A DNA stretch of 41,351 nucleotides from a virus, in IMG/VR virus record IMGVR_UViG_3300037042_003303, positions 1 to 41,351 of that record; one strand, 5' to 3'. The translations under genes were made by a program, and so were the position numbers. Position 1 is the stretch's first letter; each line of letters starts with the position of its first letter. Below the pieces are notes generated by a model. That model worked only from the letters and a program-made list of their open reading frames with translations. It was not told the origin of the DNA and did no database searches. This document shows positions 5,378 through 37,669 of the stretch, piece by piece.

Positions 5378-5424
5378 AGCATAAGCCATACCACGCGCGC
5401 CCGCAACTACGGCGCGCTTGCTAC
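5378..5424 (-). promoter_or_regulatory. Recurrent promoter element, GTAGCAA variant, 34 bp, TATGCT
   Basis: Minus strand: GTAGCAA (5418-5424), overlapping the TAG stop of the DdrB-like gene, then 34 bp, then TATGCT (5378-5383), 20 bp before the start codon at 5357. Box differs by one base and spacing by two from the main type. Confidence 0.5.
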
Positions 5425-7376
5425 CGACGCCCGCCGCGGCCGTTGCGGCGGACGCCTTCGGGGAGCCGGCGCGGGATGCGGACGCCCAGCAGCGACGCGA
5501 GGTAGGCGGCCGGCTCGATCTCGCTCGACGCCCCGAGCAACCCGCCACCGCCAAACATGCCGCCGCCGAGGTCCGGCTCTGGCGCGCCGCCAAACATGCC
5601 GGCTTGTTTCGGGTTGTCCTGTATTGCTTGGGAGAAATACGGTTTTAGTACCTTCTGTACGCCGGTCGACGGGTCCGACAGGGTCGACCAGTTCGCGAGC
5701 CCAACGCCGAGATAGAACCCGAGCAGGTGAATGTTCGCCAGTAGCGGCTCCGCACCCGCGATCGACGTTTGCGCCGCTTCTTGCTCCAACAACGTGTGCA
5801 TCATCTTTTTGCTGGGGCGTTCTTTGCGGGGCATCCGTTCCAGCCCGCGGTACAGGCGGATCGCGTCGGGGAGCACCGCCATCAGCGACCACTTCGGTTT
5901 GACGTCACCCGCGAGGATCAAGGTTTCCAAGCTGACGATCAACGGGAGCGCGGCCATCAGCGTCTCTTCGATCGCCTCGTCGCCGAACCCTTGCGCCCGG
6001 ACCTCGCGCGGGAGGTACCCGACCATCACCTGCTTGATTAGCTCGACTTGCTTGTGCGCTTGGCTGTACGCGTCCCGGCGCGCGGGATCCATGCGTTCTA
6101 GCAGCGCGTTCCAAAAGCCGGGGTTCACGTCGATAAACCCGAGCCACCGGTTCGGGTTATCGCTCTTGACGTTGTCGATGTTTAGCTCGGAATCCCATTG
6201 AAACGCCGGGAGAACGCGCGGATCGGTAATCCCGAGCCCGCGGACAACGGACATCGCGCGGCCCAACGGCGTCTCGGCCGCGGCGGTCGACTCCTGCGAC
6301 GCGCCGGCCAGCATGGTCGCCTCCCCGATCGACAGCGGGCGGCCGTCCGCCCGGCTGACCTCGCGCACCAGCAGGTAGCGGCGCCCCGACCGCGGATCGT
6401 CCGCCGGGGCGAGGCTCGCCCACTCGTTGTGGAGCGTCGCGAGATAATCCTCGTATCGGTCTTTCGGCGACATCAGAATCGCGATGGTGCGGCCGTTTCC
6501 GCCCAAAACGTGTAGGCGGTTCGTCCGCGGGTCGCGCCAGACCACCGGCGCGCCGAGCGTCGGATCGCTGTGCGCCCAGAGCACGCGGATCGGATCGAGA
6601 CTGTTTGCGATCTTTCGGATCTTTTGCGTTTCGGGGAGCGATGACAGGTCACGCGCTTGAAACTCAGGCGGATACGCCGGGTCAACCTCAAACGTACCGG
6701 GGCGGTTACTCGTCGTGAGCGGCCCGGCGCCGTGCGCGTCGGTGTCGACCACCTTGTACTCGACGCGATACTTGCGCCCTTCGGAATCGTACAACGGCGC
6801 GACGGTCACGCATTGGGGGTTGCGCCCGCGGGGGACGGCCGGCGCCGGGGCGTCGCGGGTTGCGACGTGCGCCGCGACCTCGCGGACGTGCGCCGCGGCG
6901 GCCATCAGCCCGCGCGCGGCCCGCCGGGCGTGCTGGCGCTCCTCGGGGCTGACGCGACGTTGTAGCATCAGCCGGGCGCCTACCTGCGACGACAGTATAT
7001 CCAGCCCTTGCGCGATGCGTTCGGCGAGCACGGTATTCCGCGTCGGTACGCGGATCGATCCGGCCCCACCACGCGGCCCCGGAACGTAGGCGTCGACCGC
7101 GGCGAGGATCAGCGCCTCGCGCGGGTCGTTCGGGTCGTAGTGCTGGCGGCCCGAGCGCCGCGCCTCAATCTCGTCGCCCACCTCGGAATAGGACAGCATC
7201 GCCCGCACTTGATCCTTGCCGAACAGGTGGTCAAGCTGACCCTCGCGCACGTCGCGGTGCGCGTGGTTCACCGCGCCCGCGACCGCGGCGCGATGCGCCT
7301 GCAACCACGCGCGCAGCGTTGGCGGCGCCGCCTCGGTGAGCGCGATCAGGATTTCGGGTGTCGTCGGGGTGTGCAA
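5421..7376 (-). CDS. DdrB-like protein with ParB-superfamily domain
   Basis: A 651-residue protein. Residues about 236-345 match the DdrB-like ParB-fold pattern: FQARDLSSLPETQKIRKI, then a PVVWRDP strand, then GGNGRTIAI at 292-300, the nucleotide-binding signature of ParB-like CTPases, and a later GEATMLAGASQESTAA segment. DdrB is one of the phage P1 defence-against-restriction proteins carried inside the virion; its activity is not settled. Residues 1-35 carry the N-terminal segment shared with four neighbours. The C-terminus is Gly-rich (GGGMFGGGGLLG). I chose the TTG start at 7376 because GGAGG lies just upstream and the shared segment begins there. It is a single-gene unit with its own promoter (7394-7439). 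Confidence 0.7.
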   Translation of the reverse strand: MHTPTTPEILIALTEAAPPTLRAWLQAHRAAVAGAVNHAHRDVREGQLDHLFGKDQVRAMLSYSEVGDEIEARRSGRQHYDPNDPREALILAAVDAYVPGPRGGAGSIRVPTRNTVLAERIAQGLDILSSQVGARLMLQRRVSPEERQHARRAARGLMAAAAHVREVAAHVATRDAPAPAVPRGRNPQCVTVAPLYDSEGRKYRVEYKVVDTDAHGAGPLTTSNRPGTFEVDPAYPPEFQARDLSSLPETQKIRKIANSLDPIRVLWAHSDPTLGAPVVWRDPRTNRLHVLGGNGRTIAILMSPKDRYEDYLATLHNEWASLAPADDPRSGRRYLLVREVSRADGRPLSIGEATMLAGASQESTAAAETPLGRAMSVVRGLGITDPRVLPAFQWDSELNIDNVKSDNPNRWLGFIDVNPGFWNALLERMDPARRDAYSQAHKQVELIKQVMVGYLPREVRAQGFGDEAIEETLMAALPLIVSLETLILAGDVKPKWSLMAVLPDAIRLYRGLERMPRKERPSKKMMHTLLEQEAAQTSIAGAEPLLANIHLLGFYLGVGLANWSTLSDPSTGVQKVLKPYFSQAIQDNPKQAGMFGGAPEPDLGGGMFGGGGLLGASSEIEPAAYLASLLGVRIPRRLPEGVRRNGRGGRR

Positions 7377-7393
7377 CGGGCCTCCACCGTGCC

Positions 7394-7439
7394 TACCTAC
7401 ACGCGCGCCCGCCCCATGCGCCAGCGGTGGACGTGCTAC
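7394..7439 (-). promoter_or_regulatory. Recurrent promoter element: GTAGCAC box, 33 bp, TAGGTA
   Basis: Minus strand: GTAGCAC (7433-7439), 33 bp, TAGGTA (7394-7399), 17 bp before the TTG start at 7376. The 10 bases after the box are almost the same as in the copy at 8000-8044 (GTCCACCGCT against GTCCACCACT), which suggests duplication of the element. Confidence 0.55.
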
Positions 7440-7444
7440 GACTG

Positions 7445-7984
7445 TCAGCGCCCCGTCCGCAACCGCGCGTCCAACTCCTCCTCTGCAAACGCGGCTAACT
7501 CACGTTCCACGATGCTTTCTGGATCTAGCGGTGGCTCGTTGACCCATTCAAGCCTGCGCTCCCATTCGGCTAACGATCCGTGCGCGGCGGGCCATTCACC
7601 CGCAGCAACAAACGCGCGCAACTCCTCCAACGCTGCAACGCCGCGCGGGCGGTACTTGTCACGCGCCGCCTTGGCGGTGCGGATGGCTTTTTTGCGGCTT
7701 TTTTCAAGCACAGCCAGTCGGGTGCCAAAGGTTCCCCGTGGAATGTAAAATCCACCGACTTTGACGCTATCCAAGCGGCCTAATGTTTGTAACTCTTTGA
7801 CTAACGCTTGTTTTTGCGCTCCGCGTTCAACCGCACGAAGATTGTGGGCGTGGCGTGCGTCCTGCGCGACCGCAACGACGCGCGCCTCGTTCACGTCCAG
7901 CCACGCCGCCAGTTCGGGCGCCGCAACCGCCCGGAACGCATCGGGGGACTTTTCGATGATGGCGTATACCGTTTGACCCGTCAT
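7445..7984 (-). CDS. Hypothetical protein with shared N-terminal segment
   Basis: A 179-residue, mostly helical protein. Residues about 14-45 (VAAPELAAWLDVNEARVV) align with the N-terminal segment of the DdrB-like, SNF2 and DUF3560 proteins nearby. The middle is strongly basic (EKSRKKAIRTAKAARDKY), suggesting nucleic-acid contact, and the C-terminal third is acidic (IVERELAAFAEEEL). No enzymatic motif. Start ATG has AGGTG eight bases upstream. Own promoter (8000-8044). It could be a small accessory factor of the same putative delivered complex as its neighbours; that is inference from the shared segment and position. Confidence 0.6.
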   Translation of the reverse strand: MTGQTVYAIIEKSPDAFRAVAAPELAAWLDVNEARVVAVAQDARHAHNLRAVERGAQKQALVKELQTLGRLDSVKVGGFYIPRGTFGTRLAVLEKSRKKAIRTAKAARDKYRPRGVAALEELRAFVAAGEWPAAHGSLAEWERRLEWVNEPPLDPESIVERELAAFAEEELDARLRTGR

Positions 7985-7999
7985 GTTTCACCTACTGCG

Positions 8000-8044
8000 G
8001 GCGTAGCCCGTTACGCGCGCCGCTACCAGTGGTGGACGTGCTAC
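8000..8044 (-). promoter_or_regulatory. Recurrent promoter element: GTAGCAC box, 32 bp, TACGCC
   Basis: Minus strand: GTAGCAC (8038-8044), 32 bp, TACGCC (8000-8005), 15 bp before the ATG at 7984. It directly abuts the large hairpin at 8044-8085. Confidence 0.6.
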
Positions 8045-8085
8045 GCGCCGGCGCTGGGGGAATACCAGAACCCCGCGCCGGCGCG
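8044..8085. terminator. Large GC-rich hairpin after the 8099-8761 gene
   Basis: Arms CGCGCCGGCGC (8044-8054) plus GGGG and their complement CCCC (8071-8074) plus GCGCCGGCGCG (8075-8085), with one bulged T and a loop of about 11 nt. It has no T tract, so it may work as a Rho-independent-like or RNA-stabilising structure. It lies between the stop of one unit and the promoter box of the next. Confidence 0.45.
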
Positions 8086-8098
8086 CACTACGCCACCC

Positions 8099-8761
8099 CT
8101 AGCGTAACTGGGCGCCCATGAATCGAACAGGGTACGTCCATCGAACCACGGCGCGAATCTCGCGGTCGGTGACGGGCGCCTCAACCAGTTCCGCGTGTAC
8201 CGTGTCGAGGCGCAGGTCCGCATCCACGTCCGCGCCTTCGGTGGTGTGGTGGCCGTCCGCACGGTAGGTCCGCGCCTCGGCGTCAACGTCGACGTGTTGA
8301 TAGAGCGCCTCTTCCGCCGCGCCTTCGCTCGGATGCGTGGTGTCGCTAAGCGCGTCACGCACCAGACCGGGCCAGATGCCAGCGAGGTAGGCGCGGGCGG
8401 CGGGGCGATCCAGCGGGGCGGGGATCGCGGCCTTGACGGTTTTTTGGGCGGTCAGCGCCGTTGGGTGCGTGACCTCCCAGACGAACGTACGCCCGCGCGT
8501 GTGTAGCTCGGACTCGTCCCCGCCCTCCTCGGTGCGCTTCCCGCGCGGCCGCCACGCGTGCCGCGGGATCCCGGTCCCGGCGGCCTCAACCGCCTTCTGT
8601 GCCAGCGGGACCGCCCATGCCTGTACCGCCTCGCGCTCGTCGTCCGTCATGCGTGCCCCCTGTAGCATACGCATAACCACTTGCGCGTTACGGTCAAGCC
8701 AGTCGGCGAGCGGCGGGGGCGCCGCCGCGCGCAACGCGGCGAGGGTTTGGGTGGGCGTCAT
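8099..8761 (-). CDS. Hypothetical protein with shared N-terminal segment
   Basis: A 220-residue protein. Its first 30 residues (TPTQTLAALRAAAPPPLADW) are nearly the same as those of the SNF2 protein at 11001-14258, although the DNA has diverged. The rest is not recognised: a charged region (WRPRGKRTEEGGDESELH) and alternating strands toward the end (REIRAVVRWTYPVRF). The ATG overlaps the stop of the upstream helicase gene (ATGA), so it is the last cistron of the four-gene unit 14265-15692, 11001, 8758, 8099. Conserved position next to two helicases suggests a subunit or cofactor. No enzymatic motif is seen. Confidence 0.6.
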   Translation of the reverse strand: MTPTQTLAALRAAAPPPLADWLDRNAQVVMRMLQGARMTDDEREAVQAWAVPLAQKAVEAAGTGIPRHAWRPRGKRTEEGGDESELHTRGRTFVWEVTHPTALTAQKTVKAAIPAPLDRPAARAYLAGIWPGLVRDALSDTTHPSEGAAEEALYQHVDVDAEARTYRADGHHTTEGADVDADLRLDTVHAELVEAPVTDREIRAVVRWTYPVRFMGAQLR

Positions 8762-11004
8762 CGACGGCCTCGGGGCTTGCCGAGCACGGCGGACACGGTC
8801 GGCGTGTACCTCACGGTCTTGAACGATCCCGGCTCAAACAACCGGGCGTCGCGCTGGGTGACCGTGTGGTGGGTCGCGGTCGACGTGACCGACGCGGCGG
8901 CGTAGCCGTGCATCCTCGCCCAGTGTGCGGCCGTTTTCGGGTTCCATGCGCGGGCGGAAAACACAAGGGCTTGCACGTTCGCGGTGCTTGGTAGCACGTT
9001 CTCAGGGTTCTTTTTACCCTTTTGCTTCACAGTTCCGCGCGCGCCTTCCTTTTTCAGCTTGGCGCCGATCAACCCGCCTTCGGCCAGCAGTTCGGCCATG
9101 ATCTCGCCGATCGGCCGCGGGTCCGCGTCGCCCGTCGTCGCGATCCGCTCGCCGCCGATGATCCGGTCGCTGATCTGGCGCTTTCGCTCGATAGCATCGT
9201 TCATAATCTGGTCGATCGTGTCGGGGGCGTACAGGTACCAAATGACCGCGCCGCGGGTCTGCCCGATACGGTGGATGCGGTCTTCGGCCTGCTCCTCGTC
9301 CGCGGGCGTCCAGAACCGCTCGACAAACACCGTGTTTGACGCCCGGAACAGGTCTAGACCCTCTTTTGCGGCCTGCGTGCCGATAAACACGTCATACTTG
9401 CCAGCTTGAAAGTCATTGACGCGCCGGTTTCGCTCCTCGCTCGACACCGAATCGGCGCCGCCGATCGTGGTGAAGCGGATCCCCTCGGAACGCAGCCCGT
9501 CCTCGATCGCCCGGACGACGTGGTGGTGCTCGGCGAACACGACCACCGGTTCGCCCTGCTCCACCAGCGACGAAATAAACTCGATGGCGGCGGGCACTTT
9601 CGCGGCGCCCATCGCGCGGCGCAGGTACCCCACCTTGACCAGCGGTTCGTTTCGGAGCGTCCGGCTGACCTCCTCCTCGACCTCGCCGTCGATCTCGGCG
9701 TCGGTGGGGCGCTCGTAGGTCGGGTCGGCCGCCTCACGCGCGGCGATGCGGGCGAGCACCGCGCGCCGCTTGTTGTCGTATAGCCACGGCTCAAAGTCTT
9801 TGACGACCTTGTTATATTCGCGGATGTCGTCGTCCGTTAGCTCGATCGGCTGCATGACGCGTTGTTTCGCGGGTAGGTCTTTCAGAACGTCGCTTTTCAG
9901 CCGCCGCACGGAGATACACGACAGGAGCTTCCGTAGCCCGTCCTCGTTCCGGGTGCCGGTGAATTGCTTGACCGTGCGCCCGCGGCCGATCGACTTGTTG
10001 ACGACGTTGGTGTACTGGTCGCCGAAATCGCCGCGCGCCCCGAACGTCTCGGCGTCCAGCATGGATAGCTGGTGATGAAGCTCGATCACGTTGTTTTTCA
10101 GCGCCGTACCGGACAACAACAGGACGTGCGGTACCTGCTCGGCGAGCGCGAACGCGGCTTGAGAGCGCGCGGCTTCGGGTTCCTTGACGTAGTGGCTTTC
10201 GTCGCCAACAAACAGCTTGACGCCCCACGCGGCCAGCGGTGCAACGTACTTGCCGAGCAGCGACCACGTCGTCAAGATAATCCCCTTCCACCCGGCCGGC
10301 GGGAGAGCTTGACCGCCGGCCTTCAAGACGTGGACGGGGACGTGGGGGAGCCAGCCGACTTTACCGGTCGACGGGTTGCCGCTGATCTCGTCGCGCCACT
10401 TCAGCAGGACCGACGCCGGCGCGACGATGACGGCCGGTAATAGCTCCTCGGGGTCGACCACGATCGATCCGAGCGCCTGTATGGTCTTGCCGAGCCCCGG
10501 CGCGTCCCCGAACAGCGCGCGGTACCCCGTCAGTTTCGCGAACGCGATACCGACCACTTGATAAGGGAAGGGGAATAGCTGCTTCCCCGTGCGCGGGTTC
10601 ATGGGGAGCCGGGCGCGGAGCCGTTCGACCACGTCGGCGATGACCGCCTGACCGATCGGGCTCCGTACCGCGGCGGGATCCGGAGCGCCAGACATATCGG
10701 CGAGCGGATCGCAGCGTAGCGCCTCGGCATCGAACGCGCGCTTTTGCGACCCGAACGCCTTGATCAACGCCGCCGCGGTGCCGGGCCACTCACCCGCCAT
10801 CGCCTCGGCGACCATCCACGCGCGCGCCGCGCGGAAGGCCACATACGGGCGGCCGGCGGCATCGGTGCGGACGCGCACCAGCGCACGCACGCCGGGGCGG
10901 TCTAGCCACGCGCGCCCGCCCTCCGGCGGTACAGGGAGGCGCACGCCGCCAGACGGCGTCAGCGTCCACGCGAGCACGGGCGCACCGCTACGGCCTGCGG
11001 TCAT
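8758..11004 (-). CDS. SNF2-family helicase, ZRANB3/SMARCAL1-like
   Basis: A 748-residue SNF2 ATPase. Motif I GDAPGLGKT (Lys173), motif II DESH (in GDESHYVKEP), motif III LLLSGTALKN, and motif VI EDRIHRIGQTRG are all present. The DESH box and the following YVK are typical of the annealing-helicase group that includes ZRANB3 and SMARCAL1, which rewind or remodel DNA. Residues 670-748 form a separate module (VQALVFSARAWNPKTAAHWA...) that recurs in the protein at 34311-35429. It lacks the N-terminal segment seen in its neighbours. The region before motif I matches that of the next SNF2 protein (RCDPL, FPYQVVGIAFAKLTGYRAL), so the two are probably tandem duplicates. Coupled by ATGA overlaps on both sides. 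Confidence 0.88.
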   Translation of the reverse strand: MTAGRSGAPVLAWTLTPSGGVRLPVPPEGGRAWLDRPGVRALVRVRTDAAGRPYVAFRAARAWMVAEAMAGEWPGTAAALIKAFGSQKRAFDAEALRCDPLADMSGAPDPAAVRSPIGQAVIADVVERLRARLPMNPRTGKQLFPFPYQVVGIAFAKLTGYRALFGDAPGLGKTIQALGSIVVDPEELLPAVIVAPASVLLKWRDEISGNPSTGKVGWLPHVPVHVLKAGGQALPPAGWKGIILTTWSLLGKYVAPLAAWGVKLFVGDESHYVKEPEAARSQAAFALAEQVPHVLLLSGTALKNNVIELHHQLSMLDAETFGARGDFGDQYTNVVNKSIGRGRTVKQFTGTRNEDGLRKLLSCISVRRLKSDVLKDLPAKQRVMQPIELTDDDIREYNKVVKDFEPWLYDNKRRAVLARIAAREAADPTYERPTDAEIDGEVEEEVSRTLRNEPLVKVGYLRRAMGAAKVPAAIEFISSLVEQGEPVVVFAEHHHVVRAIEDGLRSEGIRFTTIGGADSVSSEERNRRVNDFQAGKYDVFIGTQAAKEGLDLFRASNTVFVERFWTPADEEQAEDRIHRIGQTRGAVIWYLYAPDTIDQIMNDAIERKRQISDRIIGGERIATTGDADPRPIGEIMAELLAEGGLIGAKLKKEGARGTVKQKGKKNPENVLPSTANVQALVFSARAWNPKTAAHWARMHGYAAASVTSTATHHTVTQRDARLFEPGSFKTVRYTPTVSAVLGKPRGRR

Positions 11005-14000
11005 CGCCGACGCCGCTTCAGCATTAGCCGCACAAACTCCGACCTGTTTTTACGCCGAAATACAGTTTCGTACGAGTCATCACCCAGCACCGCTTCGGTC
11101 AGGGCTGCCTTACCCTTGTTCAGCTTGTGCATGTAATCGTCCACGCTACCGGCGTGGTATTGATCCCGCGCTCCTGCATAGTTTAGGTGCAACTTGATGA
11201 TCTCGACTGGTTTTTTCTGACCGATACGGTAGATCCGATCTTCGGCTTGTACCTCGTCTGCCGGCGACCAGAAACGATCAACAAAGATGGCCTTTGCAGC
11301 GCGCGTCAGGGTCAACCCTTCACGCGCGGCGGTGGTCGCGATCAGCACATCGATCTGACCCTGTTGGAACCCTTCGGCGATGGCGGCCCGCGTAGCCGGC
11401 AACGTCGACCCCTCGATGGTGGCGAAGCGCAGCCCCGCAGCGGCGCACGCGTGCTCCAAGGCGACAACGGTTGGCAAGAACGCGGTCCACACAATGATCG
11501 ATTCTTTTAGTTTGTGGATAAGATCAATCGCAGCAGGAACCTTGATTTTGCTTGCAAGCTGTCGAAGCTCCGAAAGCTGCGTAAGGGCTTCGGCCTCCAT
11601 CGACCGCGTAACGGACTCTTCGACTTGTTCACGGATTATCTGCGACGCGGTATCCGGGTCTAACCCCATTTTTTCAATCTCGGCGCGTACGCGCGGGGTA
11701 ACCTCCGACTCAAGCCACGCGCGGAACGTCATGTCGGCTTTTTGGTACTTGACGCGCTCTTCGGGCGTCATCTCAACGCCGATCATTATACGTTTTTTCG
11801 GGGGAAGGTCTAGGACATCGCCTTTTTTCCTTCGGATTAGGGTACAGGCAAGGCGCGTGCGTAGCTCCTCGATGCGCTCCAACCGCAATTCAGTGGTGTC
11901 CTCCCCATCGTCATTAGGCGCACGATAGGACTTGATCGCGTCAATCCCATCATATTGGGCGCTGAACGCCTTTTGTGTCCCCCACACCTTCGGGTCAACG
12001 GCCGAGAGGAGCGGGTGTATTTCCTCCAGCGCATTCTTGAACGGGGTACCCGTCAACAGCACCAGATGGGGGATTTGGGCGCCGACCGTCTGTAATGCCT
12101 TCGACCGCTGCGTTCGGGTATTTTTTCCGTAGTGGGCTTCATCCACGATCATCAGCTTGAAACCCGCATCTACGATCTCACGTTGACGCGCGACCAGCGT
12201 ATCCCACGAGCACACGACGAAGCCCGCATCCGCGATCCGTCCGGTGTCCTGCGTGACGTCGCCCGGAATGTCCTCAAAGACCACCGGGCGTGCGCGCGCG
12301 ACGGCGCGGATGCGCCGGCCCCCGACACGCTCCTCGACTTCGACCTCGTCCGCGTCTTCCGCGGTGGTACTGCCCCGCAAAATCTGCACGGGCACGCGCA
12401 TCCGCCCCGTCCACCGTAGGATCTCACGCGCCCAGTTATACACGACGCTTGCGGGAGCAACAACGAGGCATGGCAGGTTTTCATCTGGATCTGCGATAAC
12501 ACACCCGATACCTTGGATTGTTTTGCCAAGACCCATGCTATCTGCGATCAGCGCGCGGTATCCTGCCAGTTTCGCGTATGCGATACCGACCTCTTGGAAC
12601 GGGAGCGGCGATAGCCCCTTCGGGCCGTGCGCGGCGAACGCTTGCCGGACGGCGGCGATGGCTGCGCGCGCCTTCGGATTGGTCACGACATCTGGGGACA
12701 CCGCCTGTGACAAGGCGACAAGCGGTTCGCACCGCTCCACCTCCGAATCCATCACGGTCGCCACGCCACCGTATGCCCGCGTCATAGCCTCGGCCAAACG
12801 GGGCACTTCGGAGCGGATAAGGTCTAGGAACGCCCGTAAACCCTTTTCGTTCACGACGTAACGCCATCCGGCCCCGTCAAATGTCAGGTCTTTGTTCCAT
12901 GGTCGGAGCATACCCCACAAATCTCGGGAGACGCGGTTCAGCCAAATATGAATCCACTTCTGCTCTTTATCCACAAACAACCGTGTTTTTGGGTCACGTA
13001 CGCGACTCGTTACGGTCTGCACCTTCCAGCGACCCCCTTCGGCCGTCCCCGCATCGCGCGATTGCTCCAGCGAAGAGCGCGCGGCGCTCCACGTCGCGGC
13101 GTTCGCTTCTACCGCATCCGCGAACGCGTAGTGACCGCGCGAACGCGCAAAGGTGACCGCTTCTGCGAGCTTTTTGGGGTCAACGGACAGCGTCGAAGCG
13201 TAGCCCTGTGTACGGCCATCCGCGCCCGTAAGCCGGTCGTACCCGGCACTCGGCCCGAATGTAGCGGCGGACCAGTCCAACGCGCGGCCGGACGGAAACC
13301 ACAGGATGCGGAACCGTTCTTTATCCCAAACATAGCGAACACCTTGAACCGTTCCCTGTCCCGGCGGGTACTGCGGCGCTTGGACGCGTGCGCGCTCCAC
13401 GGCTGCGCGCTCAACGGCTGCGCGGGCTTGCGCCTGCTCCGCTTTGACCTCTTGCGCCCAACGAGGCGCGGCGGCGCTTATTACGGTTGCAAGCTCTTTT
13501 TTACCGTAGGCTTCTAGTAGCTTGGTAAACTCCTCGACCTTGTCCGTGTTTCGTAGGACAATGTGCCAACGATTATCAATGGGTAGGGCCGTCCAATCTT
13601 CTTTGCGTTTTAGGTCCAGACCGAGCTTTTCGATCTGGTTTTCGACGTGGCCTGCGGTGCTCATATCACCCCAAAAAACCGCGATAGCCCCCGTGTCGGG
13701 GCTGACGCGCCACTCACCGTCAACATTCCGGCCGGTACGGCGTGCGTTCACCGCGGCATCCGCGAACCGTTGCTGGCGTGCGCCGATCGCCCAGTCCCGC
13801 ACACGTTCAACGAACGCGGACACAAGTTCGGCACCTCCTAACTGTGTTTTTGCGTATTTTATTAGGGATTGTGCGGCGCGGTAATGGTCTTCGGGAGAAA
13901 TGTCAGGCAGATCAAGTTCTCCGTAAGCTGCAAAGAATCCAGCGTCCGCCGCGCTAAACCCGCGTTTATCCTTCAGCATTTTACCGGTCATCGGGTCGTA

Positions 14001-14258
14001 ATGCGTGCGATCCGTTAGCGTTTGCGCCCATGCTTGAAGCTGCGCCAACGCGACGTCGACCGGGATGTCAGCCGCTAAAAATCCGGGGACGGCGGGCGCT
14101 GGCCTCGGCGTGCGCGTACCCCGTTGCCGTTGGGGTGTGGGGGCACTTTGCGCGCGGGTCACGGTAGCGCGCAATAGGTCTAGGTTAGCCGCGATCCACG
14201 CGGCGAGGGGTGCCGGCGCGGCGGCGCGGAGGGCATCGACGGTCTGTGTCGGGTTCAT
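11001..14258 (-). CDS. Large SNF2-family helicase with extended N-terminal region
   Basis: A 1085-residue protein. Residues 1-30 are the shared N-terminal segment. Residues 60-500 include repeated beta-rich modules (WRVSPDTGAIAVFWGDM; VRYVWDKERFRILWFPSG; KWIHIWLNRVSRDLWGM) without a family I can name. The SNF2 core starts near 545: motif I DSMGLGKT (576-580), DEAH box in VDEAHYGKN, TGTPFKN, and RIYRIGQKK as motif VI. The helicase C-terminal lobe is followed by a basic tail (LKRRRR). In P1 the DarB anti-restriction protein joins methyltransferase and helicase domains; here helicase and methyltransferase (35489-37669) are on separate genes. The ATG start lies 6 bp after the DUF3560 gene stop. 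Confidence 0.85.
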   Translation of the reverse strand: MNPTQTVDALRAAAPAPLAAWIAANLDLLRATVTRAQSAPTPQRQRGTRTPRPAPAVPGFLAADIPVDVALAQLQAWAQTLTDRTHYDPMTGKMLKDKRGFSAADAGFFAAYGELDLPDISPEDHYRAAQSLIKYAKTQLGGAELVSAFVERVRDWAIGARQQRFADAAVNARRTGRNVDGEWRVSPDTGAIAVFWGDMSTAGHVENQIEKLGLDLKRKEDWTALPIDNRWHIVLRNTDKVEEFTKLLEAYGKKELATVISAAAPRWAQEVKAEQAQARAAVERAAVERARVQAPQYPPGQGTVQGVRYVWDKERFRILWFPSGRALDWSAATFGPSAGYDRLTGADGRTQGYASTLSVDPKKLAEAVTFARSRGHYAFADAVEANAATWSAARSSLEQSRDAGTAEGGRWKVQTVTSRVRDPKTRLFVDKEQKWIHIWLNRVSRDLWGMLRPWNKDLTFDGAGWRYVVNEKGLRAFLDLIRSEVPRLAEAMTRAYGGVATVMDSEVERCEPLVALSQAVSPDVVTNPKARAAIAAVRQAFAAHGPKGLSPLPFQEVGIAYAKLAGYRALIADSMGLGKTIQGIGCVIADPDENLPCLVVAPASVVYNWAREILRWTGRMRVPVQILRGSTTAEDADEVEVEERVGGRRIRAVARARPVVFEDIPGDVTQDTGRIADAGFVVCSWDTLVARQREIVDAGFKLMIVDEAHYGKNTRTQRSKALQTVGAQIPHLVLLTGTPFKNALEEIHPLLSAVDPKVWGTQKAFSAQYDGIDAIKSYRAPNDDGEDTTELRLERIEELRTRLACTLIRRKKGDVLDLPPKKRIMIGVEMTPEERVKYQKADMTFRAWLESEVTPRVRAEIEKMGLDPDTASQIIREQVEESVTRSMEAEALTQLSELRQLASKIKVPAAIDLIHKLKESIIVWTAFLPTVVALEHACAAAGLRFATIEGSTLPATRAAIAEGFQQGQIDVLIATTAAREGLTLTRAAKAIFVDRFWSPADEVQAEDRIYRIGQKKPVEIIKLHLNYAGARDQYHAGSVDDYMHKLNKGKAALTEAVLGDDSYETVFRRKNRSEFVRLMLKRRRR

Positions 14259-14264
14259 GGGCGG

Positions 14265-15692
14265 TTACTCCACGCTCGGGCGCGTAGCTTCATGGTCCTT
14301 GACGTCGCGCTTGACGGCGTCCTTACGCCAACGCGCCTCGGCGGCATCGGCGCCGTGCGCGCGGTAGTACGCGGCGCCCGCGTCTTCCTCGGCGACCGCA
14401 AGCTCGCCACGCCGAACGAGCCAGTCTTTCGCGGTGGCGGCGATGACGGCCAACGCTTCCGCAGGCGTCCCCGTAGCCCGCGCGATAACCGGGCCGTCCT
14501 CACCACCGAACCCGCGCAACCGCAGGACGTAGCCGCCCGCCGTTGGCATCGACAGGAAAGCTACATACGAGGGTTCGTTACGCGCGTCCAAGCGCCCATA
14601 CCCGAGAATGAAGGATCCAAAATAATCGGTGCCGATCTTGATCGCTCCGAGCGCCTTTTTCGCGTTCTTTTTCGCGTGGCCGGCGTAGTCAGCATCGGCG
14701 GCGCGCGGTGGCGAAATCTCACGGAGCCGCGCGTATACCGCCTGCGCCGCCTCCTCCGGGGTCGCGGCGGTGCCGTACTCGACCGACCCGAACGACGGGC
14801 CGCGCCCATACGGGGTCTCCAGCGCCGTCGCCGACGCGCCGATAAAGAGCACCACGTTACGGTCGGTGAAACGGGCGATCTGTTCAGAATACTTGATCGC
14901 ACCCGTCGCTTTGCGGATCCCGCTGCGAATCGCGGCGGTAATGTCGGCGATCCGCTGGTCGCGCTCAACGCGCGATAGCTCGCGCTCGACGCGGGTAGCG
15001 GCGTCCTCGCGACCTGCGGCTCGATACTCGGCGTGCTCGGCGCGCTTCTGCTCGGTAATGCTCGCACGCATCGCGGTATCATGGCGTGCGATGTCGCGCC
15101 GGTGCCGCCCTTCGGAATGGTGGCCCACCTTGATCGGCTCGCCGGTGTGACCCTCCAGCGCACCACGGGCGCGCTGGTAGGCGGTGGTCGACGCCGCCGT
15201 CCGCCGGGCGGCGCGCGCCTCGTACATCTCTGCACGGGCGCGGAGGTATTCGGCCTTGGCTTCCCGCGCTTCGGCCCGCGTACCGGTTTCGATCTCAAAC
15301 GCGACCTTGAACCCGCCGTCGTTGAGGTACTTTTTGATCGCCCGCAGGCCCAATGTCGGGACGGGCGTACCCACCGAACCCTGACGGCGCCAGATGCCGA
15401 GGCTCCGCACCCACAGGAACCCGAACCGCTTGATAATCGTGGCGATGTCGGCATCACGGGCGAACGTGGCGATCGTGCCGTCCGCGGGCGTGTGGCTGAT
15501 CGTCACGGCCGCGTCGGCCTCCGATTCGGGGACCACGATCTGATCAACGGATAACACTTCATGCAGCAGAACGCCGATCAACGCTTGATTATCCGCCCAC
15601 CATTCCGCCGCTTCGGTGTCAGGATGCGCGGCCTTCCACGCAGCGCGCAACGCGTCGCGGGTGCGAAGGATCTGGTGAGCGGTGAGCGCCAT
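14265..15692 (-). CDS. DUF3560 protein
   Basis: A 475-residue protein. The signature of DUF3560, GHHSEGRHRRD, is at residues 190-200, preceded by a helical arm of alternating Arg and Glu. Residues 62-135 (VTISHTPADGTIATF ... RFGFLWVRSLGIWRR) match residues 158-230 of the methyltransferase at 35489-37669, so the two proteins share a module. The C-terminal half contains an alpha-beta region (VVLFIGASATAL). Residues 1-45 hold a weaker version of the shared N-terminal segment. DUF3560 proteins are found on phages and plasmids with helicases and methyltransferases; activity is unknown. I chose ATG 15692 rather than the GTG three codons upstream because GAG lies eight bases before it. Confidence 0.75.
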   Translation of the reverse strand: MALTAHQILRTRDALRAAWKAAHPDTEAAEWWADNQALIGVLLHEVLSVDQIVVPESEADAAVTISHTPADGTIATFARDADIATIIKRFGFLWVRSLGIWRRQGSVGTPVPTLGLRAIKKYLNDGGFKVAFEIETGTRAEAREAKAEYLRARAEMYEARAARRTAASTTAYQRARGALEGHTGEPIKVGHHSEGRHRRDIARHDTAMRASITEQKRAEHAEYRAAGREDAATRVERELSRVERDQRIADITAAIRSGIRKATGAIKYSEQIARFTDRNVVLFIGASATALETPYGRGPSFGSVEYGTAATPEEAAQAVYARLREISPPRAADADYAGHAKKNAKKALGAIKIGTDYFGSFILGYGRLDARNEPSYVAFLSMPTAGGYVLRLRGFGGEDGPVIARATGTPAEALAVIAATAKDWLVRRGELAVAEEDAGAAYYRAHGADAAEARWRKDAVKRDVKDHEATRPSVE

Positions 15693-15731
15693 CGTACACA
15701 CTCGGTAGCAAGAGCCGGCCTGTCACCGGGG

Positions 15732-16374: not shown

Positions 16375-16700
16375 TAGGCGGCCTTGGCGGCTTCTTCGCG
16401 GAACGCGTTGATCAACGCCGACTGATACTCGGTCGACAGGTTCCCCAGCGCGGACGGCACGAGATCCGCGAGGGCGTACCACGCCTGCGCGTCGCTCATC
16501 CGCGCCGGCTCGACCACCGGTTCGGGTTCGGGGACGCCCAGAACGTGATCGGCGACCTGCGCCAGCATCGGCGCAACATCGGGGTCGCTGGCGTACTTTC
16601 GCATCAGCATCGCGAGCCGAGCCTGCCCCATGCTTTCAACGAGGGCGATCAACGCGTTGACGTCGCCATTCCGGCGACGGCCATAGTAGTACCTTCTCAT
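16374..16700 (-). CDS. Hypothetical small helical protein
   Basis: A 108-residue protein with a basic, Tyr-rich N-terminus (MRRYYYGRRRNGD) followed by helical, mostly acidic sequence (NALIALVESMGQARLAML). The N-terminal RRRN resembles the RRNP motif in many other products of this window. No recognised family. Its ATG overlaps the upstream stop (ATGA) and its stop overlaps the downstream GTG, so three genes in a row are coupled. Confidence 0.55.
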   Translation of the reverse strand: MRRYYYGRRRNGDVNALIALVESMGQARLAMLMRKYASDPDVAPMLAQVADHVLGVPEPEPVVEPARMSDAQAWYALADLVPSALGNLSTEYQSALINAFREEAAKAA

Positions 16701-17440
16701 TTGCCCCCCTTGGCCGCGAGCAACGCCGCCAGACCCGCCATCAGTTCCTCTTTCTCAGACATCGCGGCGGCCTTCGGCTGGCGCGGTGCGCGCGGCTGGC
16801 GCGGTGCGCGCGGCTGGCGCGCGGCACGGGCGGCTTCGGCGGCGGCTGCGCGCTCCGCGGCGGCGCGTTCGGCCTCGGCGGCGGCGCGCTCCATCTCGCG
16901 CGCGGCGCGCTCGGCCTCACGCTTCGCCGCGGCGGCCTCCTGCTTCGATGCGGCGGACGCGCGGCGCGCGGTCGCGCGGTGCTCGCCGGCGGCCTCGCGG
17001 GCGCTGATCCGGGCGGTGGCGCGCTCGCCACGGCTGGCGGCGCGGTGCGCCCCGGCGAGGGTCGGCGGGATCTTTTCGGCCAGCGCGGCCTGCACGAACA
17101 CGCCGACGCCCGGCTCGGCCGGCACCTGCGACCCGAGGGCGAGCTTTGCGACGAACGCGGGGCCGGTCCCGAGGACGACAGCGTCGCCGAACGGGGTAGC
17201 GCGCCAGACGTAAACACGGTACGTCGACCGATCGACGCTCGCGTTGTAGACGTCGGGCTTGTCGGCGTTTTTGTGGCCCATGCCTGCGAGGGTATGAACC
17301 ACGGCGTTCACCTGCGCGGACTCACTGGTGAGCCCCTCGACGCGCGTAGCCAGCGCCTCAAAGCGGCCACCGTTGCGGATCAACGCATAGCGATTCACCG
17401 GGGGAACAACCCAGTCTCCGGCGGGATTTCGTCGCGACAT
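16697..17440 (-). CDS. RRNP-motif protein with Ala/Glu/Arg-rich helix
   Basis: A 247-residue protein starting at ATG 17440, with GGAGTG eight bases upstream. It begins MSRRNPAGD. Residues about 15-125 form a mixed globular domain (YRVYVWRATPFGDAVVLGTG). Residues about 130-215 are a long helix of Ala, Glu and Arg, then three tandem RQPRAP repeats and a short amphipathic C-terminus (LMAGLAALLAAKGGK). The repeats are visible as a tandem 15-bp unit around 16780-16825. No family recognised. A structural or DNA-binding role is plausible from charge and repeats. Confidence 0.6.
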   Translation of the reverse strand: MSRRNPAGDWVVPPVNRYALIRNGGRFEALATRVEGLTSESAQVNAVVHTLAGMGHKNADKPDVYNASVDRSTYRVYVWRATPFGDAVVLGTGPAFVAKLALGSQVPAEPGVGVFVQAALAEKIPPTLAGAHRAASRGERATARISAREAAGEHRATARRASAASKQEAAAAKREAERAAREMERAAAEAERAAAERAAAAEAARAARQPRAPRQPRAPRQPKAAAMSEKEELMAGLAALLAAKGGK

Positions 17441-17453
17441 ATTCACTCCAAAG

Positions 17454-22368: not shown

Positions 22369-22413
22369 AGCGTACCGCGTAGCGCGTCCAGCGGCGAGGC
22401 GCTACCGTGCTAC
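22369..22413 (-). promoter_or_regulatory. Recurrent promoter element: GTAGCAC box, 32 bp, TACGCT
   Basis: Minus strand: GTAGCAC (22407-22413), overlapping the HNH endonuclease TAG stop (22410-22412), then 32 bp, then TACGCT (22369-22374), 23 bp before the ATG at 22345. It isolates the structural unit from the endonuclease insertion upstream. Confidence 0.65.
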
Positions 22414-24881: not shown

Positions 24882-24900
24882 GTTGCCCCCGGCCCTCCGT

Positions 24901-24937
24901 ATAACGTATTCTGTCCGCGCGCAAGCGAATACGTTAT
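24901..24937. promoter_or_regulatory. Palindromic operator upstream of the RHH-methyltransferase gene
   Basis: Perfect inverted repeat of 11 bp, ATAACGTATTC (24901-24911) and GAATACGTTAT (24927-24937), 15 bp apart. It begins 19 bp upstream of the ATG and overlaps a -10-like TTATAC on the minus strand. Inferred to bind the RHH domain of the gene it precedes. Confidence 0.6.
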
Positions 24938-24976
24938 CGAACGCTGAAAGTATGGGAGCAAACACCCTAAAAAGGA

Positions 24977-25046: not shown

Positions 25047-25748
25047 CTAGCCGATCTCGATAACGTTTTTGTAGTAGCCCAAAAGGACGATACGAACGGC
25101 AACGTCAGTCTGGCCGACAACCGCGGCGCGCGACCCGAACCGGAGCACGATCGCGAACTGCGACTGGCCGGGGAGCGCGACCGGGTGCTTGCGGTAGAGG
25201 AAAACCGAGCCGTTACCGTTGTTCATCGCACCGGTAGAGGTACCGCCCGCGTTCTGGGCGACCGCACCGAACGCGCCACCGCCGGCGCCGACGAGCGAAA
25301 CCGGAGCGACATCCACGCTGGTCTGCGTGAAGTCCCAGCTAATAACACCATTGTTGATGATGTTGGTCAACTGGTTGACGTTGGTGGTGCTGGAGGCGGC
25401 GGTGGTGAGATCGCCGGTGTCGTTCGCGCCGTCGCTGAACTCGACCTGCGCGGCGATGCCGAACACGTCGTACGCGACGCCGGCCGGGAGGATCGAGCCG
25501 GCCTTCTGGTTCGATTCGGCGATAGAGAGCGAAGAAATAAAGCCCTGACCGACCTGACCGAAAGGCGTGGTGAAAGCACGGTTGGTGGTGTTCGCGATCG
25601 TGCTGCCGGCCGTGAGGAGCAGGGTCGACCAGATCGACTGTTCGCCGTAGCGGAACAGCGCGGTGTTCTGGGTCATCCCGACGGACGGGATAAGCGCCGA
25701 CTGCATAACCTCGGGGCCAAGCGTAAAGTTACCGGGTCCGTGCCACAT
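25047..25748 (-). CDS. Candidate double-jelly-roll major capsid protein
   Basis: A 233-residue protein. The pattern fits small double-jelly-roll capsid proteins of the PM2/FLiP type: a first-barrel segment SLSIAESNQKAGSILPAG (74-90) then YDVFGIAAQVEF; a P-x-x-x-x-G-x-G-G-x-x-G turn at 149-161 (PVSLVGAGGGAFG); and a final RKHPVALPGQSQFAIVLR ... IVLLGYYKNVIEI, resembling the last strands of the second barrel. Length is below the 270-300 usual for those families, so a single-jelly-roll or other beta protein is possible. A strong double terminator follows it, as expected for an abundant protein. RBS AGAGAGG precedes the ATG. Read from the promoter at 27131-27175 together with the basic-repeat protein. 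Confidence 0.5.
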   Translation of the reverse strand: MWHGPGNFTLGPEVMQSALIPSVGMTQNTALFRYGEQSIWSTLLLTAGSTIANTTNRAFTTPFGQVGQGFISSLSIAESNQKAGSILPAGVAYDVFGIAAQVEFSDGANDTGDLTTAASSTTNVNQLTNIINNGVISWDFTQTSVDVAPVSLVGAGGGAFGAVAQNAGGTSTGAMNNGNGSVFLYRKHPVALPGQSQFAIVLRFGSRAAVVGQTDVAVRIVLLGYYKNVIEIG

Positions 25749-28743: not shown

Positions 28744-28746
28744 GGG

Positions 28747-29343: not shown

Positions 29344-29345
29344 GA

Positions 29346-29720: not shown

Positions 29721-29721
29721 G

Positions 29722-30752: not shown

Positions 30753-30753
30753 G

Positions 30754-31065: not shown

Positions 31066-31067
31066 GG

Positions 31068-31535: not shown

Positions 31536-31560
31536 GACGAATCCCCGCGCTATTCGGTGG

Positions 31561-31605: not shown

Positions 31606-31615
31606 ACCCGCGCGG

Positions 31616-32262: not shown

Positions 32263-32291
32263 ATATGCGCCCCGCGCCTCGGCGTCGAGCG

Positions 32292-33952: not shown

Positions 33953-34314
33953 CAGCGGCCCGTTTGCTGGCGTAGCAGATACTTGGCTTGCTCGCGGTGT
34001 TCCAGCAGGGTCATCAGGTAGTTTTCCATCGCGCGCGGTACGCCCTCGTCCAGCGCGGCGGACGCGAGCGCGATGATCTCGTCCTCGGCGGCTTCCAGCG
34101 TCGTCCGCGTAATCAGCATGATTTCGACGGGTTCAACGCGCTGGTTACTGATCTCGGCGAGGGTGTCGATGTCCTTTTCCAAAGACTCGTACAAACGCTG
34201 AAACAGCAGGTGGTTTGCGTAGTTACTCGCGTTCCAGTGTGCGTATTGATACGCCGTACGGAGCGCGATCATTCGCGACAGCAGCGGGTTCGCGTCAGGA
34301 TTTCTTCGCATCAT
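33952..34314 (-). CDS. Dps/ferritin-like protein
   Basis: A 120-residue protein. Residues about 10-48 match the first two helices of the Dps family: LRTAYQYAHWNASNYANHLL then LYESLEKDIDTLAEIS. The order of His-Trp-Asn and of the Asp-Thr-Leu-Ala-Glu segment is the Dps ferroxidase region, though the usual four-helix length is slightly shorter here. Dps proteins bind DNA and sequester iron. It begins MMRRNPD, the RRNP motif. It is coupled to the genes on both sides by overlaps. In a phage it might condense DNA or protect from peroxide during entry; this is inference. Confidence 0.6.
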   Translation of the reverse strand: MMRRNPDANPLLSRMIALRTAYQYAHWNASNYANHLLFQRLYESLEKDIDTLAEISNQRVEPVEIMLITRTTLEAAEDEIIALASAALDEGVPRAMENYLMTLLEHREQAKYLLRQQTGR

Positions 34315-35429
34315 CGCACCAACCCGAAGAGCCGGGCGACTTCGACGCCCGGCTGGGCGTACGCCCCGCGCGCCGCGCCGATAGCCGCATCGTAACCCCG
34401 GAGCCAGAGTTGCCCGTGCTTCATGCTAACACGCTTGTACGCCTTCAACGCGTCAATATAGCTGGCGTCGGGCTTGCGCTTGAGCGTGCGCTGGCCGGCT
34501 GCGAAACCTGCGATGAAATCCGCATCATACGACAGTTTACCGCCCGGCTCTTCGGACGGCCGGATCGCGGGATTCCGCCGCGCCCGGTTCACGCGCGGGC
34601 TTCCGACTGGGACGCCGACCACCGCTTGCACCCCTTCGGTGAGGGTGATCGTGCGGAAGGTCTTGGGCTTGAACCCGGCTGGATCAACCTGACGGAGCCG
34701 GAACGTCGCCGCTTTCGCGTCGACCTTGCCGTACTTGTAACCGTGCAGCTTCGCCCAACCCTTTGCGGCCTTTTCGTCAAACATCAGATTATCGAAGATC
34801 AACGTCTGTACGGTCGTCGATTGCGCCCACCGGGGACGGGCCGGGTTCTTACGCCGATCGAGCGTCAGCGTGTACGCGCTGAGCCCATCCGGGGCGTAGA
34901 GCGTGAGGGCCTTCGACGCGCCGGCGCGGAGCCACGCCTTCAACGCGTGGACGGTCAACCGATCGCCGAGGTTTGCGGCGATAAACGCCTCAACGGTGGT
35001 CTTGTACGCACGGGCGCCCGGAGCCTTGACGGTGAGCATCTGACGGCCGACAGCCGACATAATCCCGTTCTTTTTCGCGGTGCGCGCCAGCGCGGCGCGC
35101 GTCGCCTCGCGCGCGGCGGCGTGGGCGATCTCGCCGCCGGCCTTGGTCGCGCCGACGCCGTGCTCCTCCATCGTGTCGAGCAGCGCGTCCAACGCCGTAT
35201 CCGACTTGGCGACCTGACGGGCGACGATCGCGTTCGGGCCGAGGATCGCCGTCGCTTTGCGCGACGCCAGCGATTCCCGTAGCGCCCGCTTACGCTCGGC
35301 GCGGGGTAGCGCGTTGAACCGGCGGATCGACGCGCCCAGCAGCGAAGTAGCCGCGCTGGCAACCAGCGGGGCCAGCGTCGTTACCGCGACCGCCACAAGC
35401 TGCGCGTAGTTCCGCCGGGTCTTCAGCAT
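34311..35429 (-). CDS. Membrane-associated protein with helicase-shared module
   Basis: A 372-residue protein. After MLKTRRNY a hydrophobic segment LVAVAVTTLAPLVASAATSL suggests an anchor. Residues about 60-175 are helical. Residues about 200-280 (VQTLIFDNLMFDEKAAKGWA ... TFRTITLTEGVQAVVGVP) match the C-terminal module of the SNF2 helicase at 8758-11004. RRKNP and ARRNP motifs flank that module. The C-terminal 75 residues contain a helical module with a repeated Tyr/Lys pattern (SYIDALKAYKRVSMKHGQ). The start ATG 35429 has AGGAG upstream; a longer frame to 35477 would cross the promoter hexamer. Function unknown. Confidence 0.6.
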   Translation of the reverse strand: MLKTRRNYAQLVAVAVTTLAPLVASAATSLLGASIRRFNALPRAERKRALRESLASRKATAILGPNAIVARQVAKSDTALDALLDTMEEHGVGATKAGGEIAHAAAREATRAALARTAKKNGIMSAVGRQMLTVKAPGARAYKTTVEAFIAANLGDRLTVHALKAWLRAGASKALTLYAPDGLSAYTLTLDRRKNPARPRWAQSTTVQTLIFDNLMFDEKAAKGWAKLHGYKYGKVDAKAATFRLRQVDPAGFKPKTFRTITLTEGVQAVVGVPVGSPRVNRARRNPAIRPSEEPGGKLSYDADFIAGFAAGQRTLKRKPDASYIDALKAYKRVSMKHGQLWLRGYDAAIGAARGAYAQPGVEVARLFGLVR

Positions 35430-35447
35430 CGGTTCTCCTGACGTGGG

Positions 35448-35492
35448 AGCGTACCGCGTCGGCGTAGCGGCGCCCACCGGGGCGCGTGCTAC
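35448..35492 (-). promoter_or_regulatory. Recurrent promoter element: GTAGCAC box, 32 bp, TACGCT
   Basis: Minus strand: GTAGCAC (35486-35492), overlapping the methyltransferase TAG stop (35489-35491), then 32 bp, then TACGCT (35448-35453), 18 bp before the ATG at 35429. It drives the unit 34311, 33952, 33335. Confidence 0.65.
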
Positions 35493-37669
35493 GCCGGCGC
35501 TTCGGTCCCGAGCGCCACGATTTGCGCGGCGAACGCGCGCGCCGCATCCGTTGGGGTCATGCCTGTTACGTCGAGCACGACCGCTGGGCGGTCCAGCAAG
35601 CTGAAGCTGCGGTACGCTTCTGCGTAGTTACGTCCGTCCTTCGTGCGTTCGTAACGGATCCGACGCACCACGGCGGCGCGCTTGCCGGCGTATGTCTCGC
35701 GCACCGGTCCAAATCCGATCGCGTAGCCGTTGGTATCGGAACGGAATAGCGTGGCTCCAAACTCTTTTTTCGCGATCTTGCGTAGCTCGTCGTCTAGGGC
35801 TTCATCCCACCGCTTCGTCTTGCCGATCTCCACTGTTAGGTACTTGGCGTCGACGTCACCACGCGTGACGGCCCACGACAACGGTTCCAGCAGTTGCGCG
35901 CGATACGCGGACTCGACCCCGGTTTCAAGGTTGCGGACCTTCACCTTATCCGTGAACGCACGCACCACAATCGCCGGGAACACCGCTTCACCCCAACGCA
36001 CCGGGCGCACCGCAACGCGGTCGCCGGGTTGCCAGCCGGATCCCGTTGCTTTCGGCTTTTCTACGCCGACCTGCCGGGCGGTCGCTTCGATAGACCGTGC
36101 GCGGCGCGCCAATGCCTCGGCGTATTCGGCCTCCTCCTTCGACAACCGCTTCGCACGTTCTAGTGACCGCTGTGCGCGGCGGGAGGTTGACGCCCGTTCG
36201 ATCAGGTCCGCCGCGATGGCGCTGGCGTCACCCGTCGCGCCTTCGGCCTCGGCGCGGGCGCGTGCAATCGCGGCGATCTGCGCGTCGTCGCGCGGCGCTG
36301 TCTCGGCCCCTTCGGGCACGTCGAGCGTGACCAACGCGGTCGACACGGTCGCGCGTCCGAACGTCGTAGCGGGGAGCATTTCAATCGTTGCACCTTGGCT
36401 TTCCAGCCATTCACGGAACGCTTGCGCCTTGCGGTCGCTCCGCTGCACCGCGCCGGCGGACACGATCGCGACGAGCCGCCCACCGGGCTTGAGGAGCCGG
36501 GCGGCGTGGCGAACGTGATCGATGTCCTGCCCCCGCTCAAAAGGCGGGTTCATCACAACAACGTCATAGATCCCACCGGGCGCAAAATCGAGGATGTTCG
36601 TTGCGACAACCGGGTAGCCAAGCGACCGCAGGTAGGCGCCCAGCCGCGGGTTTACCTCGACCGCGTCGACCTCGCCCCCGGCGGCGCTCGCCGCGTCCGC
36701 CAGCGTTCCCGATCCGGCGCTCGGTTCTAGGACGTTGTCGCCGGGTTCGATGTCGGCGGCGTCGATAACCCGCGTCACAAGCTCTTGCGGTGTCGGGTAG
36801 TACCCTTCGATTTCCAGTTTCGTCAGGGCTTCCTTCGCACCGATCCCGGCGCGCTGCGCGTAGGCGGCGGCGCGTTGGGCGGCGCGCTGCCCGCGATCGG
36901 CGATCATGGCGGCGCGCCCGCGGAGGTAGGCGCGGCGGCGTTCATGCGCGGCGGCGACCTCTTCGGGGCTGACCGCCTCGGCGATGTCGAACGCGACACG
37001 GAACCCGGCTTGATTCAGCGCCGCTTTCAGCGTTCCAAGGTTGACCGGGGTCTTGGCAACGCCGACCGTGTTTGTGCGGCGCATGACGCTGGCCGTAGGC
37101 GCCCACACGAAACCAAACTTTCGGATAACTTGGGTAATCTCTGCGTTTTTCGGGTAAAGCGCCACCGTACCATCTTGGCTCGTGTGCCGGATCGTGACGT
37201 CGGGGTTTGCGTCGCTCGCGGGCGTCCCCTCTGGATCCTCGTCGGGGCGTAGCTCGGGGTGAAACTCAAACGGGACGATCAACGCGGCGTTACCGGCTTT
37301 CGTCATCAGGTTGACGTAGTCTTTGTACCGTTCCTTTGCCTGTTTACTAGACCACAACGGCCGGATGCGGAGGATTTTTGGCCCGCGGGCCTGAACCCAA
37401 TTGTCTGCAAACACGGATCCGCGATCACCGCCGCCACTATTCGCAACCGCTATCACGTTTGCGCCTTGGCGCCTGACCACGATGTATCGCTTACCTGTGG
37501 AGTCTCGTATCGTCTCGTTGATCTGCGGGATGCGCTCACCCAAGATATCCGCAAGGATTTCAGTGATACGCCCATACTGCGCCACCCACCAGTCTCGCCG
37601 TTCGGGATACTGCGCGATGAACGATTCACGGAGCCTATAACCCTCATCCGAAGCCGTCGGCTTGTACAT
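35489..37669 (-). CDS. DNA adenine methyltransferase with DUF3560-associated module
   Basis: A 726-residue protein. Residues 158-230 (VTIRHTSQDGTVALYPKNAE ... IRKFGFVWAPTASVMRR) match the module of the DUF3560 protein at 14265-15692. The methyltransferase core follows: YYPTP (290-294, motif X-like), LEPSAGSGTL (314-323, motif I, S-adenosylmethionine binding) and NPPF (374-377, motif IV), typical of N6-adenine enzymes. Residues about 540-700 are another alpha-beta region with WQPGDRVAVRPVRWGEAV, resembling a small barrel. With the two SNF2 helicases the element encodes the parts found fused in P1 DarB. ATG follows GGTGAGGGG. Single-gene unit between a hairpin and the next box. Confidence 0.85.
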   Translation of the reverse strand: MYKPTASDEGYRLRESFIAQYPERRDWWVAQYGRITEILADILGERIPQINETIRDSTGKRYIVVRRQGANVIAVANSGGGDRGSVFADNWVQARGPKILRIRPLWSSKQAKERYKDYVNLMTKAGNAALIVPFEFHPELRPDEDPEGTPASDANPDVTIRHTSQDGTVALYPKNAEITQVIRKFGFVWAPTASVMRRTNTVGVAKTPVNLGTLKAALNQAGFRVAFDIAEAVSPEEVAAAHERRRAYLRGRAAMIADRGQRAAQRAAAYAQRAGIGAKEALTKLEIEGYYPTPQELVTRVIDAADIEPGDNVLEPSAGSGTLADAASAAGGEVDAVEVNPRLGAYLRSLGYPVVATNILDFAPGGIYDVVVMNPPFERGQDIDHVRHAARLLKPGGRLVAIVSAGAVQRSDRKAQAFREWLESQGATIEMLPATTFGRATVSTALVTLDVPEGAETAPRDDAQIAAIARARAEAEGATGDASAIAADLIERASTSRRAQRSLERAKRLSKEEAEYAEALARRARSIEATARQVGVEKPKATGSGWQPGDRVAVRPVRWGEAVFPAIVVRAFTDKVKVRNLETGVESAYRAQLLEPLSWAVTRGDVDAKYLTVEIGKTKRWDEALDDELRKIAKKEFGATLFRSDTNGYAIGFGPVRETYAGKRAAVVRRIRYERTKDGRNYAEAYRSFSLLDRPAVVLDVTGMTPTDAARAFAAQIVALGTEAPA

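Follow-up and report, generated by a model that had tools for sequence, protein, structure and literature searches.

Do the unrelated enzymes of one viral gene block carry a common address that could bring them into the virus particle? The question is raised by a virus record of 41,351 bases (the window, by which the whole stretch analysed is meant), in which a preliminary description had recognised a Dar/Ddr-like anti-restriction block and a related N-terminus on five of its proteins. In phage P1, DarB is packed via its first 30 residues, yet no common signal has been found among the Dar proteins. A common address would permit a direct packing test.

The block and its surroundings

The plausible genes of the window are nearly all on the minus strand and are named here by their lower coordinate. 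In descending coordinates, their order is 39055, the methyltransferase (MTase)-like 35489, 34311, a series of small proteins, the capsid candidate 25047, an M23 peptidase, the block (15701-5421), the FMN-reductase-like 3922 and the integrase 2622, which places the block between candidate capsid genes and the integrase. Read by eye, the plus strand to the left of position 270 resembles the end of a UvrD-type helicase; the record is therefore probably a fragment. No terminase, portal or tail family and no prohead protease was recognised among the scanned window proteins, and the capsid role of 25047 is that of a candidate, whose structure models were poor (mean pLDDT 28 and 35). Many of the small proteins (28183, 28747, 29346, 29722, 30075, 32292) have a C-terminal membrane helix. 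The run 28183-32292 suggests that the particle is associated with a membrane: several members have one predicted terminal membrane helix, and transglutaminase-like and SLT proteins are interspersed or close by.

Several other features of the region were noted. A NUMOD4/HNH endonuclease ORF of the homing type (22410-23630) overlaps the upstream part of the frame that starts the capsid-region gene 21770, and a second MTase-like protein with an SPPY motif (23640-24965) adjoins the capsid candidate. From composition, the tetrapeptide RRNP would be expected 0.18 times in the window proteins; it was counted seven times, spread over five proteins, the regions bearing it including 25825-27096, 16697, 18163, 33952 and 34311; it is also found in related viruses, often close to the N-termini of large ORFs.

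The block genes and their coordinates had been described correctly (Table 1): a DdrB-like ParB protein, two SNF2 helicases and a DUF3560 protein were assigned by Pfam, and for 7445 and 8099 family searches gave nothing above the cut-off. The SNF2 motifs are intact in both helicases, which resemble the defence translocases ZorD and DpdE. The first 60 residues of 14265 are an extension missing from two of the three compared plasmid DUF3560 homologues and weakly similar to the N-terminus of 35489 (pair p=0.002). These two proteins have about 140 residues in common (E 1e-23) ahead of differing main domains; each also begins with a long extension that contains a WW motif.

Table 1. Coordinates of the block proteins, the shared pieces and other relevant genes in the window.
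Feature	Coordinates	Strand	Evidence or remark
651-aa protein 5421	5421..7376	-	TTG start with GGAGG upstream
DdrB-like ParB domain of 5421, residues 199-321	about 6414-6782	-	Pfam PF18763 7.9e-9; GNGRT motif
Segment of 5421, residues 4-42	7251..7367	-	shuffle and profile tests
179-aa protein 7445	7445..7984	-	function not assigned by family search
Segment of 7445, residues 9-46	7847..7960	-	shuffle and profile tests
220-aa protein 8099	8099..8761	-	function not assigned by family search
Segment of 8099, residues 1-39	8645..8761	-	shuffle and profile tests
SNF2 helicase 8758, 748 aa	8758..11004	-	Pfam 4.3e-25; no N-terminal segment
C-terminal shared domain of 8758, residues 674-748	8761..8985	-	HMM leave-one-out 1e-13
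SNF2 helicase 11001, 1085 aa	11001..14258	-	Pfam 6e-39; orthologue K3 70820-75379
Segment of 11001, residues 1-39	14142..14258	-	shuffle, codon and profile tests
DUF3560 protein 14265	14265..15701	-	Pfam 2.7e-14; ~60-residue N-terminal extension
Candidate major capsid protein 25047	25047..25748	-	48-54% identical in three kin; used for kin search
388-aa protein 34311	34311..35477	-	capsid-side region; C-terminal-type domain about 34599-34823, leave-one-out 7.9e-17
Adenine-MTase-like 35489	35489..37669	-	NPPF motif; DarB-MTase-like; region in common with 14265

The likeness to P1 Dar/Ddr held for the content of the block and failed for its N-termini. The protein 5421 matches DdrB (6.7e-8) with GNGRT kept in the alignment, and its best relatives in a protein search come from phage-plasmids of Vibrio, Citrobacter and P1 type; 8758 matches the helicase (3.3e-7) and 35489 the MTase (4e-4) of DarB. 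While P1 DarB combines MTase and SNF2 in one protein, they are on separate ORFs in the window (8758, 11001, 35489). In phmmer comparisons with the window proteins, DarA, DdrA and Ulx gave nothing below E 0.01, and none of the P1 Dar N-termini matches the segment described below. The C-terminal HExxH metallopeptidase of DdrB is absent from 5421; among the predicted proteins, 2212 (2212-2625) alone has an HExxH. It is small and metallopeptidase-like, with the sequence HELGH and a weak SprT-like match, and adjoins the integrase here and in seven related viruses (K1, K2, K3, L138, L140, L141 and L142). The same domain set (DdrB-ParB, SWI2/SNF2, MTase) is known from the polyvalent proteins, for which entry into the host together with the DNA has been predicted (Iyer et al., 2017, PMC5512222); those have several activities per polypeptide, whereas the window has separate ORFs with a short common segment.

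Two shared pieces, one at each end

A segment of about 35 residues at the N-terminus is common to 5421 (PTTPEILIALTEAAPPTLRAWLQAHRAAV), 7445 (SPDAFRAVAAPELAAWLDVNEARVV), 8099 (MTPTQTLAALRAAAPPPLADWLDRNAQVV) and 11001 (MNPTQTVDALRAAAPAPLAAWIAANLDLL), all six pairs of which scored better than shuffles (p<=0.002). Apart from it these four are unrelated, and two of them can be recognised as enzymes of the anti-restriction type. The fifth protein for which it had been claimed, 14265, did not go beyond shuffles against these four (p 0.02-0.30) and had p=0.91 in a joint profile of the window and the related virus K3. With a core of L..W[LIVM]..N/H, the segment probably forms two short helices linked by a proline-rich turn. 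As had been observed, it is nearly the same in 8099 and 11001 with differing DNA: 17 of 27 residues are identical, and the same codon is used at 8 of these 17, against 8.2 expected from codon usage if the choices were independent. Codon identity is thus at chance level, and the segment is therefore old and kept at the protein level, with no recent copying. DUF3560 relatives in viral contigs were considered as further bearers, and the segment was not on them.

A second piece, missed in the preliminary description, is a domain of about 72 residues that ends 8758 (VQALVFSARAWNPKTAAHWARMHGY...FEPGSFKTVRY...AVLGKP). It is also on 34311 and at the end of the 34311 orthologue in K3 (100921-101661), and it ends the SNF2 orthologues of the related viruses K1, K2, K3, K4, L138, L140, L141 and L142 as well as giant ORFs of K1, K2, L140 and L141. 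Leave-one-out E-values of its HMM were 3e-9 to 8e-17; it matched nothing in PHROGs below 0.01 and nothing in phages by tblastn. No protein with both the N-terminal segment and the C-terminal domain was found in the window and its kin.

Related viruses and the recurrence of the segment

Used singly as queries, 5421, 11001 or 25047 gave no close kin. The transglutaminase-like 32292 led to the contigs L098 and L099, which have the style of the 28183-32292 region in common and little sequence similarity, and an alignment of these led to K1 (G001; 72,988 bases) and K2 (G002; 58,610), whose capsid candidates are 48-51% identical to 25047. A search with the capsid candidate added K3 (G010; 104,974 bases, 54% identical) and the distant K4 (G012), and a family search with the SNF2 protein 8758 added L138, L140, L141 and L142. 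The group's capsid candidate had no match in the phage or plasmid records searched. It was also unmatched in the genome collection, where no host was found; this collection held one SNF2 locus, without the C-terminal domain.

Orthologues of 8758 are present in all kin having the region. In K1, K2, K3 and L138, the capsid genes are followed by large ORFs and these by SNF2 and integrase, and the order in L142 is the same, as judged from the proteins downstream of the capsid candidate. In K1, K2 and L140, giant ORFs with no Pfam domain above the cut-off occupy the place of the window's block, which suggests that fused and tagged arrangements may stand in for each other across kin. Part of the window protein 16697-17497 resembles the start of the K1 and K2 giant ORFs, of which it may be a remnant or counterpart.

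In K3, the segment is near the N-termini of 57499 (SPGLREWVDQNESKTARLI), 58080 (KPALKAWVDQNIPRTFDLI), 53506 (ARLLDWIEANPIRTAELL) and 69303 (QRLLAWMQTHRTRLYKFV), none of which is homologous to the tagged proteins of the window; the gene starts of K3 are guesses, and some of the ORFs called in these G+C-rich records are spurious. These four had initially been chosen by eye, for which a reciprocal profile test partly corrects: with the window-only profile, 57499, 69303 and 58080 ranked first to third of 115 N-termini, and with the K3-only profile, 5421, 7445 and 11001 ranked first to third of 43, with 8099 sixth. In the joint profile of the four window and four K3 members, all eight had p<=0.0007 on being left out. 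These joint and reciprocal N-terminus tests were used in place of an HMM from the four Ala-rich window segments alone, which gave weak results (fifth rank for one K3 bearer when full-length proteins were scanned; hmmsearch E-values in kin >0.2). In the kin ORFs, which total 92,275 residues, the pattern L..W[LIVM]..[NHQ] was matched six times; four of the matches fall within the N-terminal 80 residues encoded by the 18 K3 block genes, and K3 has no other. The shuffle mean for these N-termini was 0.05 (maximum 3 in 20,000 shuffles). The match count is partly post hoc, as the K3 sequences were already known when the pattern was widened; the narrower window-derived L..W[LI]..[NH] matches one of the K3 four and one K2 giant ORF.

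Other candidates were less convincing. The K3 proteins 67311, 70820 and 75372 were not upheld (p 0.14-0.69) and 78046 was borderline (p=0.017). The 11001 orthologue 70820 has a look-alike, PLRAYYFAHQ, at the matching place, where the N-terminus similarity was not significant (p=0.33). A weak match in the giant ORFs of K2 and L140 (ALHQWLTSN after RRNPY) was likewise not upheld (p=0.87 and 0.12), and no significant segment was obtained by the profile test in K1, K2 and L140. The segment is therefore confirmed in two viruses only, the window and K3. It reappears in a divergent relative on proteins that are not homologous to the first bearers and so behaves as a portable tag; the earlier proposal that unrelated enzymes carry it stands in this respect and has to be given up for 14265. 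That the K3 bearers are different proteins also means that the segment moves between proteins and is kept. Inheritance by repeated duplication of one ancestral N-terminus, which would have no common partner and aid only folding or dimerisation, fits four bearers in one block with 8099 and 11001 most alike, and is rendered quite improbable by the fully diverged codons of conserved residues and by these different K3 bearers.

Loading, docking and the meaning of the tags

The tag probably serves its bearers as a common address for loading or docking, and packing into the virus particle may be its purpose. Because a portable N-terminal segment on unrelated proteins adjoins capsid genes, a signal for loading into the particle is the best explanation, with its chances evenly balanced. 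The block would then be a delivered set of the anti-restriction type, comprising the DdrB-like ParB protein, two SNF2 translocases, the DUF3560 protein and small unknowns. By way of the N-terminal segment, unrelated proteins would meet at a single partner, for which an inner protein of the capsid or a membrane protein is the likeliest candidate, and the tagged proteins would be packed in the particle and then enter the cell with the DNA; the C-terminal domain would be a second address, serving the SNF2 protein 8758 and 34311. Loading is supported by the four window and four non-homologous K3 bearers with agreeing reciprocal profiles, the motif count in the K3 block N-termini, the randomised synonymous codons, the same order of capsid genes, block and integrase in the kin, and the P1 Dar/Ddr-like content. 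Against it, K1, K2 and L140 have giant ORFs instead of a significant segment, the block members 14265 and 8758 are without it, no capsid fold or scaffold protease was identified, the models of the capsid candidate were of low confidence, and anti-restriction activity is known for none of 7445, 8099 and the K3 bearers.

Loading by a short N-terminus has precedents. Thirty residues of P1 DarB suffice for capsid targeting, with no consensus reported among the Dar N-termini (PMC9024508), and the Dar proteins are packed stepwise, dependent on DarA and Hdf (PMC12810830). T4 internal proteins have a common N-terminal packaging sequence, and some of them are anti-restriction proteins injected with the DNA (PMC12373910). 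Whereas the P1 proteins have no common N-terminus (PMC9024508), the four of the window do, and their arrangement is like that of T4 Ip1-Ip3, with several different proteins and one N-terminal sequence in one virus (PMC12373910, PMC9024508). Judged by sequence, the window has a short N-terminus common to unrelated proteins, which would agree with a capsid targeting sequence of the T4 or P1 DarB kind if these proteins are delivered. Unlike in T4, a large SNF2 enzyme is among the bearers, neither a prohead protease nor a cleavage site was identified, and the virus is without a recognised tailed-phage gene; the likeness is one of arrangement.

A cytoplasmic complex could use docking segments equally well. 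The segment might have no part in the particle and serve as a helix for docking into a complex formed within the infected cell, such as one in which an SNF2 translocase works on DNA together with the ParB-like protein and small subunits; by sequence, such a helix could not be told from a loading signal. The two tagged proteins whose domains can be recognised both act on DNA, the SNF2s have the noted resemblance to defence translocases, and the giant fused ORFs lie at the same place in kin, as if docking replaced physical fusion. However, the only recognised domain that these giant ORFs have in common with the window's block is the C-terminal domain, and the adjoining capsid genes and a content like that of virion-borne P1 proteins favour delivery; docking alone is possible and, in our judgement, somewhat unlikely. 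Less probable still is a reading in which loading in this virus group depends on the C-terminal domain and the N-terminal segment has a different task. The C-terminal domain has the wider distribution, being on the SNF2 orthologues in the window, K1-K4, L138, L140, L141 and L142 and on unrelated giant ORFs and 34311-type proteins, as against two viruses for the segment. On the other hand, it is on only two or three protein types per genome and could be a DNA-binding domain suited to SNF2.

For the loading signal, the broader picture is put forward tentatively: an unclassified group without recognised tailed-phage genes may use two interchangeable addresses, one a helical segment at the N-terminus and the other a domain at the C-terminus, to load the anti-restriction enzymes that it delivers, with bearers differing per virus, and in the window and K3 separate tagged proteins would replace the giant fused ones of K1, K2 and L140. 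If this two-address reading is true, new cargo would be findable just by reading tags. In a virus with one visible address on unrelated proteins, cargo could be listed from sequence alone, as for the T4 internal proteins, and because these viruses form a group unmatched in the searched phage and plasmid collections, the block is a source of candidate counter-defence proteins.
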